A stretch of 64,000 nucleotides of DNA. It comes from Olleya marilimosa CAM030 (GTDB lineage Bacteria > Bacteroidota > Bacteroidia > Flavobacteriales > Flavobacteriaceae). The translations under genes were made by a program, and so were the position numbers. Under the pieces are notes generated by a model. It was not told where the DNA came from and searched no databases. It worked only from the letters and a program-made list of their open reading frames with translations. Positions 3,281 through 47,097 of this stretch are shown here, one piece after another. The stretch is taken from contig NZ_JADR01000010.1 of assembly GCF_000518485.1 (NCBI RefSeq), forward strand, positions 62,001 to 126,000, given 5' to 3'. Numbering within the stretch: position 1 is the first letter of the stretch; each line of letters opens with the position of its first letter.

Positions 3281-4726
3281 TTATTCTAACCTAGTTTTTA
3301 AAGCCTGTAGTATTTTAGTGTAAACTAAATCGCCATAATAAGCATCCTCTACACCAAAGTCTATATTTGGATTGTCGTTAATTTCAATAACCATTGGTTT
3401 GTTATTGACCACTTTTATATCAATACCATACAAGCCTTTACCCATTAGTTTTGCAGATTTAATGGCCATAGTTATAACATCTTTTGGCACATCCTCTATA
3501 GGTAAGCAATCAGCGTCACCATCTTGATCATTTTTTTTATCTGCATTCCAATTATAAATTTGCCAATGTCCTTTAGCCATATAATACTTACAAGCGTAAA
3601 ATGGGACATCGTCTATAATGCCTATACGCCAATCATAATCCGAAGGACAAAACTCTTGTGCTATAATTAAATCAGACTCTTTTAGCATGTCTGTTACCAA
3701 GGTGTCATATTCTTTAGTTGTTTTAGCTTTTTTTACTCCAAATGAAAACGTGCTATCTGGTGCTTTTAATACACAAGGTAAACCAACTTGTTCTAAGACT
3801 AAAGCTCTGTTTTCTTTGTGCACAATTACTGTTTTTGGAGTCGCAATATGAGCATTGTTTAACGCTTCTGCCATGTACACTTTGTTGCAGCATTTTAAAA
3901 TTGCTTCTGGGTAATCAATAATTGCAATGCCTTCTTGCTGTGCTTTACGTGCAAATGCATAGGCTTCATTATTAACTTCTGTACTTTGTCTAATAAATAA
4001 AGCATCAAAAGAGGATAAGCGACTTAAATCTTTAGGCTCAATTATTTCAGCGTAAATATTCATCTTTTCAGCAATATCAATAAACTTTTTTAAGGCTTTG
4101 CTATTACTAGGAGGAGCAGGATCGTTTGGGTTTACCAAAATTGCTAAGTCAAAATCTGAGGTAGTCAATTTTGGAGTATCATAACGTTTTTTTGCAAAAT
4201 ATTGATTAGCAAATAGGTTAACACTTTCTAGATGGTCTAAAGGAATTTCTGATTCTGAAATAGCTTTAATACTTTGTATGTTCCATTTATTATTATGATG
4301 AAACTTTACGCGTAAAAATGGAACTTGAAAATGTTTGTAAAACAAACTACTAAGCTCTTTGTATTTTTGGGCCACGTTTTGTCCAAAGTATACGCTAAGT
4401 GTAAACTCTCTTGATTTAATGTTTTTTAAGCTTTGTTGGATAACATCGTCAAACTCGTCTGATACAATTTTAACCAGTTTTAAAGTTTTTAAATCTACAA
4501 TGTTTCTTACTGTTGGGATAGCTAAATGACCTCTAGCTTCGGCTAAAAGCGAGACGTAGTAACCTTTAGACTGGTAACTATAATCTTTGCAAAGATTAAA
4601 TATTCTTGCTTTTTTTAAAAGCGAAAATTTAGGATTGGTAAGATAATCTTGCGATGAAATTACCGTAATATTCTCAATCGAAAAATGCCATTTTTCTGGT
4701 TGATTGACAACAATGTATTTGTTCAT
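3281..4726 (-). CDS. RimK-like ATP-grasp ligase with RLAN-type N-terminal domain
   Basis: A 481-residue protein. Residues about 1-200 match what I recall of the RimK-like ATP-grasp N-terminal (RLAN) domain. Residues ~205-480 form an ATP-grasp ligase: LCVLKAPDS-type nucleotide-binding strand (here LPCVLKAPDS), the flexible loop FSFGVKKAK, and the metal-binding VIEINDNPNID close to the C-terminus. Enzymes of this group ligate amino acids to a carboxylate (glutamylation of S6, peptides or small molecules) through an acyl-phosphate. Gene order with a GNAT protein and a GCS2 ligase fits published comparative-genomic predictions of peptide or amide biosynthesis; substrate unknown. The 108 bases upstream hold a perfect 13-bp inverted repeat. 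Confidence 0.85.
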   Translation of the reverse strand: MNKYIVVNQPEKWHFSIENITVISSQDYLTNPKFSLLKKARIFNLCKDYSYQSKGYYVSLLAEARGHLAIPTVRNIVDLKTLKLVKIVSDEFDDVIQQSLKNIKSREFTLSVYFGQNVAQKYKELSSLFYKHFQVPFLRVKFHHNNKWNIQSIKAISESEIPLDHLESVNLFANQYFAKKRYDTPKLTTSDFDLAILVNPNDPAPPSNSKALKKFIDIAEKMNIYAEIIEPKDLSRLSSFDALFIRQSTEVNNEAYAFARKAQQEGIAIIDYPEAILKCCNKVYMAEALNNAHIATPKTVIVHKENRALVLEQVGLPCVLKAPDSTFSFGVKKAKTTKEYDTLVTDMLKESDLIIAQEFCPSDYDWRIGIIDDVPFYACKYYMAKGHWQIYNWNADKKNDQDGDADCLPIEDVPKDVITMAIKSAKLMGKGLYGIDIKVVNNKPMVIEINDNPNIDFGVEDAYYGDLVYTKILQALKTRLE

Positions 4727-12760: not shown

Positions 12761-13798
12761 ATGGAGGACTACACACCAGAATTACAAGAAGAAGATGCAG
12801 ATGGACTATTTGAACATCATTCTTTTATAGCAGACAAAGGTCAAAAACCATTACGTATTGATAAATGGTTAATGAACAAAATAGAAAACGCAACACGTAA
12901 CAAAATACAAGATGCAGCCAAAAACGGTAGTATATTTGTAAACGACGTACCAGTTAAATCTAATTATAAGGTTAAACCGGAAGACGTTATTGCAGTACGT
13001 TTTGAGCATCCACCACATGAAAACCTATTGGTAGGAGAAGATTTACCATTAGACATAGTCTATGAGGACGACCAATTATTAGTCGTTAATAAACCAGCAG
13101 GTATGGTTGTACATCCAGGACATGGTAATTATTCTGGGACGTTAATTAATGCATTAATATTTCATTTTGACAATCTACCAAACAACTCAAGCGATCGTCC
13201 AGGACTAGTCCATAGGATTGATAAAGACACTTCAGGGTTATTAGTTATAGCAAAAACAGAAGTCGCTATGGCACATTTGTCAGCACAGTTTAAAGCTAAA
13301 ACTAGCGAGCGTGAATATGTAGCAATAGTTTGGGGTAATATGGATGAGGAAGAAGGTACCATAGAAGGTAACATTGGACGTCATCCAAAAAACAGACTGC
13401 AAAACACAGTTTACTTAGACGACGATGCAGACAAAGGTAAACCAGCAGTAACACACTATAAAGTAATAGAACGTTTAGGCTACGTTACTTTAGTAAGCTG
13501 TAAGCTAGAAACAGGACGTACACATCAAATACGTGTCCACATGAAGCATATAGGACACACCTTGTTTAACGACGAGCGTTATGGCGGAAACCTGATACTA
13601 AAAGGAACCACGTTTACCAAGTACAAACAATTTGTAGACAACTGTTTTAAAGTATTACCACGTCAAGCCCTACATGCAAAAACACTAGGCTTTGTGCATC
13701 CTACAACAAATAAATTTATGAGTTTTGAGTCTGACATTCCAGACGATATTCAAGAATGTATAGAAAAGTGGAGAGGCTATTCCAAACACATGGAATAA
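12761..13798 (+). CDS. RluA-family 23S rRNA pseudouridine synthase (RluD-like)
   Basis: A 345-residue RNA-modifying enzyme. An S4 RNA-binding domain occupies about residues 31-76 (LRIDKWLMN...), followed by the catalytic RluA domain with the signature HRIDKDTSG; Asp154 is the nucleophile. RGRTHQIRVH-like sequence (GRTHQIRVHMKHIG) is the second conserved block. Enzymes with this layout (RluD, and RluC) isomerise uridines of 23S rRNA; RluD is the best fit by architecture and length but the site cannot be proven. An acidic extension of ~25 residues precedes the S4 domain. It is cotranscribed with the PASTA gene and followed by a structured intergenic repeat. Confidence 0.88.
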   Translation: MEDYTPELQEEDADGLFEHHSFIADKGQKPLRIDKWLMNKIENATRNKIQDAAKNGSIFVNDVPVKSNYKVKPEDVIAVRFEHPPHENLLVGEDLPLDIVYEDDQLLVVNKPAGMVVHPGHGNYSGTLINALIFHFDNLPNNSSDRPGLVHRIDKDTSGLLVIAKTEVAMAHLSAQFKAKTSEREYVAIVWGNMDEEEGTIEGNIGRHPKNRLQNTVYLDDDADKGKPAVTHYKVIERLGYVTLVSCKLETGRTHQIRVHMKHIGHTLFNDERYGGNLILKGTTFTKYKQFVDNCFKVLPRQALHAKTLGFVHPTTNKFMSFESDIPDDIQECIEKWRGYSKHME

Positions 13799-13813: not shown

Positions 13814-13927
13814 TTGGGCGTTACCACAAGGGTCGCGCTATCCATTATATCTTTTTTTGCCATATATGGCAGCAAAAAAAGGATGTCATTACTATCGCTA
13901 ACGCAAAACTTAGCGATAGTAAACGCA
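13814..13927. repeat. Structured intergenic element, copy A
   Basis: This noncoding stretch begins GGGCGTTAC (13816-13824) and contains two adjacent stem-loops. The first is a 10-bp stem, CTTTTTTTGC (13851-13860) with GCAAAAAAAG (13872-13881), around an inner ATATAT palindrome. The second is a perfect 11-bp stem, ACTATCGCTAA (13891-13901) with TTAGCGATAGT (13910-13920). A diverged relative lies at 21893-22050. It resembles interspersed elements I believe occur between genes in other flavobacteria; no open reading frame is present. Confidence 0.6.
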
Positions 13928-14010: not shown

Positions 14011-14769
14011 ATGAAACTAGTTATATCTCCAGCAAAATCTCTTGATTTTGAAAGCAAATTACCTACAGTAAAAGCAACACAACCTCTATTTTTAGAGCAA
14101 TCCACAAAATTAAATAAGGTATTAAAAAAGCAGAAGCCTAAAGATTTATCTCAATTAATGAGTATTAGCGATAATTTAGCGCAATTAAATTACAATCGTA
14201 ATCAAGATTGGATACTACCTTTTACTAAAGATAATGCACGTCCAGCAATGTATGCTTTTAATGGAGATGTTTATAAAGGCTTAGATGCCTATAATATTGC
14301 AGAAGATAGGCTAGACCTTGCCCAAGATACTATCAGGATTTTATCAGGATTATATGGTGTTTTAAAACCATTAGACTTAATACAACCCTACAGATTAGAA
14401 ATGGGAACAAAACTAGCAGTAGGAAGCAATAAAAATCTATACGAATTTTGGAAAAAAGATATAGTTAAGTCCTTAAATGAAGAACTTGAAGACAACGAAG
14501 TATTTCTTAATTTAGCCAGTAACGAGTATTTTAAAGCTATAGATACAAAAGCACTTAAAGTACCAGTCGTAACAGCAAATTTTAAAGAATTTAAAAACGG
14601 TAAACTTAAAATAATATCGTTTTATGCCAAAGAGGCTAGAGGTTTAATGGCTAAATACGTTATCGATACTAACGCACAAACCATAGAGGACTTAAAACAA
14701 TTTAATTACGATAATTACCAATTTGATGGAAACCTCTCAACCGAAAAAGACTTGGTCTTTACAAGATAA
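14011..14769 (+). CDS. yaaA: YaaA family (DUF328) peroxide-stress protein
   Basis: The ATG at 14011 is chosen over an upstream TTG (13981) because family members begin directly with a sequence like MKLVISPAKSLDF; this gives 252 residues. Conserved blocks include SPAKSLDFE, MYAFNGDVYKGLDA, LSGLYGVLKPLDLIQPYRLEMGT, NLASNEYFKAI and AKEARGLMAKY. In E. coli the homologue lowers free iron and limits oxidative DNA damage, and it binds DNA; the same role is inferred here. The last 44 bases overlap the next reading frame, so translation of the two is probably coupled. Confidence 0.93.
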   Translation: MKLVISPAKSLDFESKLPTVKATQPLFLEQSTKLNKVLKKQKPKDLSQLMSISDNLAQLNYNRNQDWILPFTKDNARPAMYAFNGDVYKGLDAYNIAEDRLDLAQDTIRILSGLYGVLKPLDLIQPYRLEMGTKLAVGSNKNLYEFWKKDIVKSLNEELEDNEVFLNLASNEYFKAIDTKALKVPVVTANFKEFKNGKLKIISFYAKEARGLMAKYVIDTNAQTIEDLKQFNYDNYQFDGNLSTEKDLVFTR

Positions 14770-21892: not shown

Positions 21893-22050
21893 TTTAGGCG
21901 TGTCTTTTTTGCGCATTCTTAACATAAAAGTCAGGCTTTCACTACTCAATCTTTTTGCTAAGGCAAAAAGGATTTCAAACAGACCGTTCAATTATGAAGT
22001 CATCACGATTTTTTTCAAAATAGTATTCATGAGTAATCCTTCACGCAACA
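21893..22050. repeat. Structured intergenic element, diverged copy B
   Basis: The order of blocks matches copy A at 13814-13927: TTTAGGCGT at the start, a TCAGGCTTTC block (compare TCGCGCTATC), a hairpin CTTTTTGC (21951-21958) with GCAAAAAG (21963-21970), and an ending CCTTCACGCA (compare GCTAACGCA). The interval between hairpin and end is longer than in copy A. No reading frame. Confidence 0.45.
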
Positions 22051-47041: not shown

Positions 47042-47097
47042 AAGAGATTAACGATTATCGAAGGATAAGATTTAGACCTTAATTCATAATCACTCTT
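47042..47097 (+). promoter_or_regulatory. Nested stem-loop leader of rpsD
   Basis: Three stacked helices nest: AAGAG/CTCTT (47042-47046 with 47093-47097), GATTAT/ATAATC (47053-47058 with 47086-47091) and AAGG/CCTT (47061-47064 with 47077-47080). This lies just before the S4 gene and is a candidate S4-responsive leader. Confidence 0.5.

Follow-up and report, generated by a model that had tools for sequence, protein, structure and literature searches.

Flavo-1, filed in Rfam as RF01705, has been known since 2010 (Weinberg et al., 2010; PMC2864571) and is also named in PMC3765529 and PMC7682815. It figures in a list of the bacterial sRNA families of highest abundance, where no function is stated for it (PMC9029176). 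The main-text passages on Flavo-1 in PMC2864571, PMC9029176 and PMC9723704 make no mention of a closing helix, a second arm or an exchange of arms; the 2010 description itself is in a supplement. REP sequences are described as palindromes of 20-40 bp with a GTAG head (PMC3733652), and in REP/RAYT systems the rayt gene is reported to be flanked by repeats (PMC2817692). The element described here is like REPs and REPINs, as presented in these two sources, in its many intergenic copies, often close behind stop codons, and in being a folded single strand. It is unlike them in its length (~75-160 nt) and several helices, in the conservation of its sites between species and in that no RAYT was found. 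Integron attC sites share with it a single-strand fold with conserved unpaired bases and a variable arm, whereas their AAC/GTT boxes stand in another order.

The locus lies in a 64,000-nucleotide stretch of Olleya marilimosa CAM030 (the window), in which an earlier note had marked an intergenic block, copy A, as either a REP-like element or a structured RNA. A scan of the window with 4227 Rfam families gave two matches at gathering scores, one of which is Flavo-1. Copy A matches this family at 13827-13909 on the minus strand, scoring 61 bits where the gathering score is 42 (E = 7.7e-11), far beyond chance. R1, a full-length model derived from 20 source-genome copies, gives 110.5 bits on the minus and 13.3 bits on the plus strand, copy A being itself among the sequences that built R1, so that this match holds by construction. 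The fold of copy A is on the minus strand. In its core arm, its helix P2, its taxonomic range and the score of copy A the element agrees with Flavo-1. It goes beyond the family as filed in that a closing helix and a side hairpin make it larger, a second arm type falls below the Rfam cut-off (0 of 20 loci), a second frame occurs mostly in other genera and different arms stand at the same site. Copy A is thus a member of a known family, with an apparently new variant and a new evolutionary behaviour, and the comparisons suggest that Flavo-1 as filed covers only part of a larger modular element.

Copy A (13817-13904, minus strand; RF01705 and R1) has a type-A arm, a short side hairpin and the full three-way junction. 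It lies 18 nt past the stop codon of a gene for an RNA pseudouridylate synthase (12761-13798, plus strand; profile match to PF00849 + S4), and the gene of the peroxide stress protein YaaA (yaaA, 14011-14769, plus strand; profile match to PF03883) lies downstream; YaaA is best matched, among named genomes, by those of Olleya species. The sequences TGCGTTA...TAACGCC, read on the folding strand, form the closing helix P1, and from the junction extend a main arm and a side hairpin (ACC/GGT), which is either short or long. P1 pairs 13818-13822 (GCGTT on the plus strand) with 13900-13904 (AACGC), and all five of its pairs change on both sides among the copies. The side hairpin, short here (13823-13833, minus strand), is long in some other species when the site is compared. 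The main arm passes from P2 (3 bp) through a mismatch and two more pairs to P3, an internal loop, a 3-bp stem, a bulged base and a variable tip stem. P2 (13835-13837 / 13896-13898, minus strand) exchanges GC, AU and CG pair types among the copies. The mismatch (13838 / 13895) is A.G or G.A on the minus strand in alignments of the copies, with 51 AG and 14 GA in one set of 65 copies and 58 AG, 29 GA and 5 others in the 92 readable copies of a second set. Covariation and sequence place the type-A arm, with P3, internal loop, stems and bulge, at 13844-13889 on the same strand; its 3-bp stem is 13849-13851 / 13882-13884, its single bulged base 13881 and the stem next to the bulge 13852-13858 / 13874-13880.

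The components that the earlier note had listed for copy A are all present, with GGGCGTTAC at 13816-13824 and the 10-bp A/T-rich hairpin at 13851-13860 / 13872-13881. Its 11-bp hairpin is a perfect inverted repeat (13891-13901 / 13910-13920, assigned to no strand), but is made partly by the flank, the element ending near 13905. This repeat has 10 bp in the sister species G001, is a remnant in G002 and was not seen in the aligned rows of the remaining species at the site. A copy standing at an unrelated site shows identity across 99 bases. In Algibacter-type species (loci L117, L125, L131 and L162), other palindromes appear by eye to have been inserted in the arm tip of the element behind the pseudouridine synthase gene.

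When the covariance modelling proposed in the earlier note was run, the full element emerged as a three-way junction with strong covariation in both type A and type B. In type A, 97.6% of 1530 cells are paired, two-sided changes occur at 20 of 25 pairs and the score is 0.469 against 0.143 in shuffled alignments; in type B, the values are 97.9% of 1675 cells, 18 of 20 pairs and 0.412 against 0.137. The base pairs of Flavo-1 itself are backed by covariation. The type-A loop is mostly G(G/A)CATCC / GATAT and that of type B mostly TGT(T/C)xGAGC / GCGAx, while the 3-bp stem, the bulged base and the tip form a layout common to both arm types. A type-A arm also stands, judged by eye, on a second frame (TAGCC ... 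AGCT, without a side hairpin) in 17 of 23 selected matches, mostly in other genera. The predicted minimum RNA fold of copy A differs from the consensus, and the RNA folding energies (z of -1.4 for the folding and -2.4 for the opposite strand) speak, taken alone, against a minus-strand fold. For minus-strand DNA, P1, P2, the side hairpin and the arm are the predicted minimum (z of -2.7, against -2.5 for the opposite strand).

The recurrence of the block order at 21893-22050, also remarked upon earlier, reflects a real relative, with a type-B arm: a model built without copy B matches it with 32.8 bits (E = 2.5e-5). R2, the model from nine type-B elements, places this match at 21916-21997 on the minus strand, and comparison of the site extends copy B to 21897-22047 (minus strand), with P1 at 21898-21902 / 22042-22046 and P2 at 21933-21935 / 22038-22040. 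A 45-bp insert (21990-22034, assigned to no strand) was recognized in the site alignment; P1 and P2 pair across it, and among the eight genomes with an element at this site it occurs in the source genome and G001 only. Seven of the ten Olleya genomes compared (G000 to G009), the source genome included, have a full-length type-B element there, G005 has a decayed one and G008 and G009 have none. Not one of 20 type-B loci, copy B included, reached the Flavo-1 gathering score, the only Rfam match among them being one 5S rRNA; copy B is a structural relative and not a filed member of Flavo-1. In G005, three type-B elements of ~150 nt (L425, L427 and L429, ~4001-4153 each) lie ~0.5 kb before 16S genes. 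Type-B matches of similar length occur near contig ends in G000 (contigs C3 and C4) and elsewhere, and may mark rRNA operons there too.

The source genome contains 36 RF01705 matches at E <= 1e-3, 34 of them over the gathering score. Such matches were found in 35 of 60 genomes, the source genome counted among the 60, under stricter filters and with 65 candidates scored per genome, which bears out the earlier surmise that similar sequences occur between genes in other flavobacteria; the element is neither single-copy nor without relatives. Each of the ten Olleya genomes has 14 to 37 RF01705 matches. R1 gives 41 matches in the source genome and 35-46 in five sister species, and 11 type-B matches above 45 bits lie at other places of the source genome, so that about 48 copies are estimated there (36 from Rfam, 11 of type B and copy B). 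The per-genome totals of R1 and R2 overlap because each model finds some copies with the other arm; their E-values are rough, and the sequences used in building them match by construction. A phage or plasmid origin was rejected, as 50,697 phage records gave no match and 72,556 plasmid records only one partial match of 32 bases.

Judging by the flanks, most of the copies examined have kept their gene borders from one Olleya species to the next. At 35 of the 36 source-genome sites, the same place in G001 is occupied, and copies fetched from G003 and G005 lie at source-genome sites in 25 of 29 and 22 of 26 cases, some by one flank only; these fetched type-A loci are partial samples (29 against 46 R1 matches in G003, 26 against 43 in G005). 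Sites common to Olleya species imply that most of the copies examined are old. Species without the element are known at three sites. The elements are 97.7, 95.9 and 94.1% identical to those of G001, G003 and G005, respectively, against 92.9-93.0, 87.4-90.1 and 84.8-87.4% for the 60-nt flanks, which are partly coding. The site of locus L028 (G000:C4:46672-46749) presents a series from intact to lost: it is complete in G000 and G002, decayed by eye in five sister species and missing in G008 and G009.

As read from orthologous sites, one defined strand is under in-place selection for the three-way junction, whatever the direction of the neighbouring genes. Among 1336 site-by-pair columns, 35 had a two-sided Watson-Crick change, and 43 G.U states stood against 6 A.C states. 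With the exclusion of pair P2.5, a pair coupled to the A.G/G.A switch, the ratio was 32:6 (p = 2.4e-5, columns taken as independent); where both neighbour genes run opposite to the folding strand it was 15:3 (p = 0.0075). The alignments were fitted to the structures of the models, so that these counts lean towards those structures. Two-sided changes together with an excess of G.U over A.C indicate that one strand folds under selection, and such selection at fixed sites implies that the copies do something where they stand. A double-stranded palindrome, in which both strands fold equally, was rejected on this count; the paralog comparison behind that idea had given 21 G.U and 9 A.C, 10 of the 21 G.U being at one pair. 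Whole-arm gene conversion as the sole cause of covariation was likewise rejected at two sites, where pairs have changed in both partners around a distinctive stem that is kept. Here the changes are compensatory and arose in place; a single conversion tract does not account for them. In Olleya, G.U fills 62 of 3179 cells overall, a share below what we would expect of RNA helices; tRNAs were dropped as a control for this rate, there being three in the loci. In 43 copies from other genera, where the alignment is poorer, G.U accounts for 13 and A.C for 11 of 951 cells.

At one and the same site, species differ in the arm (A or B) as well as in the form of the side hairpin (short or long). The orthology table assigns 231 loci of ten genomes to 64 sites, 54 of them in at least two genomes. 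It omits loci below 2 kb, and most genomes contribute only part of their copies; also omitted are nine long type-B loci, three shown before 16S genes and six near contig ends presumed alike, and two identifiers within one site denote the same place of G004. Among the 54 shared sites, 12 have arm A in some species and B in others, 28 have only A and 14 only B. The site of copy A shows all four combinations of the two arms and the two side-hairpin forms: arm A with the short hairpin in G000, G001, G002 and G007, arm A with the long hairpin in G003, G004 and G005, arm B with the long hairpin in G006 and arm B with the short hairpin in G008, while G009 has no element. At one further site, arm A occurs in three species and arm B in five, every one of these copies bearing the side hairpin CCCTTGGG, and another two species lack the element; at another site, one A copy and one B copy share the side hairpin CCTTTAGG. 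The A and B copies at each of these two sites also share the P2 triplet. Since CCCTTGGG and CCTTTAGG are minority hairpins that occur at other sites as well (e.g. L018 and L023), their sharing suggests exchange in place and is alone no proof of it. At locus L084 of G007, a second end piece, TAATCGCTAACGCAAAC, follows the element at a distance of ~35 nt, which would fit the deletion of a tandem copy.

With regard to gene context, 53 sites were counted with one copy each: 29 have both neighbouring genes opposite to the folding strand, so that neither neighbour would transcribe it, and 8 fall to each of the other three arrangements. Among the 37 sites with the upstream gene opposite, the element begins 6-10 nt past the stop codon of this gene at 21; for the other side, a stop codon at -12 to 30 nt was noted in 7 of 16 cases. 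The Bacteroidetes promoter box is TAnnTTTG. In up to 150 nt upstream at the 53 sites it was counted 8 times on the folding strand, against 8.7 in shuffles, and the two-box form 3 times against 0.9, numbers too few to decide; the flanks of 32 copies carry neither a conserved promoter box nor a U-rich end. Flanks and box counts thus gave no clear promoter of its own. In Flavobacterium psychrophilum, Flavo-1 matches are reported sense or antisense to newly defined transcribed regions in no order, many lying in none (PMC9723704), a picture that is equivocal as to expression. In the closed genome G005, the folding strand and the leading strand (the latter inferred from GC skew) are opposite at 20 of the 26 loci between skew minimum and maximum, and the remaining 14 loci divide 7:7; this bias was set aside, as it concerns one half of one genome and is not separable from gene direction. 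In the same genome, dnaA lies at base 415 and the GC-skew minimum of the sampled loci near 1.66 Mb, and dnaA, being away from the minimum, was not taken as a marker of the origin.

Tentatively, we favour an old, mostly vertically inherited, modular element, of which Rfam Flavo-1 is the known part; going beyond what sequence comparison gives, its arms would be gene-converted and its RNA form would be bound by a shared partner and act locally. Ectopic gene conversion over the frame sequences that resident copies share may carry arms from one of them to another. The shared frame comprises about a dozen bases on one side and roughly two dozen on the opposite one, and with a frame shared on both sides gene conversion is the simplest account of arm exchange. 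Type-A and type-B arms would be functionally equivalent versions of one binding site. Less certain steps are that RNA is the working form, arising in small amounts from transcription that reads through gene ends or runs antisense across them, that a common trans-acting partner recognizes the junction, and that each copy acts locally on the adjoining gene end. Such RNA is our first choice and single-stranded DNA its main rival. Of the two proposals in the earlier note, a structured RNA is upheld as to the folded single strand, by covariation and the G.U excess, while its RNA nature is itself a conjecture. Against the favoured account speak the lack of a clear promoter, the 29 of 53 sites at which neither neighbour transcribes the folding strand, the unordered transcription reported for F. 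psychrophilum (PMC9723704), the overall rarity of G.U in Olleya with about equal G.U and A.C in other genera, and a predicted minimum fold of copy A that is off the consensus as RNA and on it as DNA. That better match is a point for the unlikely, though serious, reading that the element works as single-stranded DNA, a hairpin substrate of a DNA-processing enzyme in the manner of REP or attC. The enzyme would also make the arm exchanges, and in-place selection would reflect a chromosomal role of the hairpin. The fold is selected whatever the direction of the neighbouring gene, no clear promoter is present, and dispersed copies, differing arms at shared sites and the 99-base identical copy elsewhere all agree with this reading; G.T is tolerated in DNA too. 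It is weakened in that we know of no candidate DNA-processing enzyme and PF01797 is missing in the source genome. IS200/IS605 elements use the lagging-strand template (PMC6006769), and the 20 of 26 loci opposite to the leading strand indicate, confounded with gene direction as they are, that the folding strand is not mainly that template.

Our favoured account, an RNA bound by a shared partner, was also weighed against a cis-acting role at the mRNA 3' end of the upstream gene, where a REP-like structure would stall ribosomes or protect the end. The start 6-10 nt past the stop codon at 21 of 37 sites of that gene direction recommends this, as does the reported effect on translation of REPs within 15 nt of the stop (PMC12306157), but the mRNA there is complementary to the strand in whose pairs G.U is tolerated, and we consider it rather improbable. 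Rfam (type 'Gene; sRNA') and the discoverers, whose Table 1 lists Flavo-1 as RNA 'y' and cis-reg 'n' (PMC2864571), file it as a small RNA family in its own right, with many paralogs, and this would accord with covariation and the G.U excess. Such a family is nevertheless quite improbable: neither promoter box nor U-rich end marks the flanks of 32 copies, the single-box count is at chance and the published transcriptome shows no ordered transcription (PMC9723704). There is a small chance that arms, not elements, are the mobile units. Nearly 50 resident scaffolds per genome would be fixed docking sites, and a structure-specific process other than ordinary recombination would cut the arm (at P2) and the side hairpin at their bases and swap in arms taken from other copies, each genome thereby homogenizing its arms while the sites stay. 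The other proposal of the earlier note, a REP-like element moved by a RAYT-type transposase, fared worst; a RAYT-mobilized REP or MITE without function is largely refuted and very improbable. The repeats are dispersed, some species lack the element at certain sites, and Flavo-1 and PF01797 counts correlate weakly over all 60 genomes (rho 0.35, p = 0.005); within 37 genomes of the same family the values are 0.17 and 0.32. However, the Y1 transposase profile PF01797 has no match in the source genome or in 10 of the 18 genomes with at least 10 Flavo-1 matches. No element stood beside any of the 20 PF01797 loci, taken one per genome with flanks of up to 1.5 kb and scanned with both models (E <= 1), 35 of 36 sites are shared with the sister species, and the elements are conserved above their flanks, with an excess of G.U. 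A GTAG head was not found by eye at the foot of the element (TGCGTTA/TAACGCC; 88 positions, 25 pairs). As to a MITE, the ends of the element are 5 bp long, GCGTT/AACGC; at the three sites where some species lack it, the flanks are too diverged for a target-site duplication to be read. One flavobacterial genome, G015, has 14 Y1_Tnp (PF01797) matches, three with equal best scores; the one locus examined had no element beside it.

The gene borders kept and the arms exchanged in related marine flavobacteria make the function of Flavo-1 testable. Nature has already made the arm swap at a dozen sites, which narrows the possible functions and pinpoints the sites at which to look. Open reading frames in the window were called mechanically (at least 80 aa), and an S4-Flavobacteria ribosomal protein leader (RF03141) lies at 47053-47091 on the plus strand with 51.5 bits.
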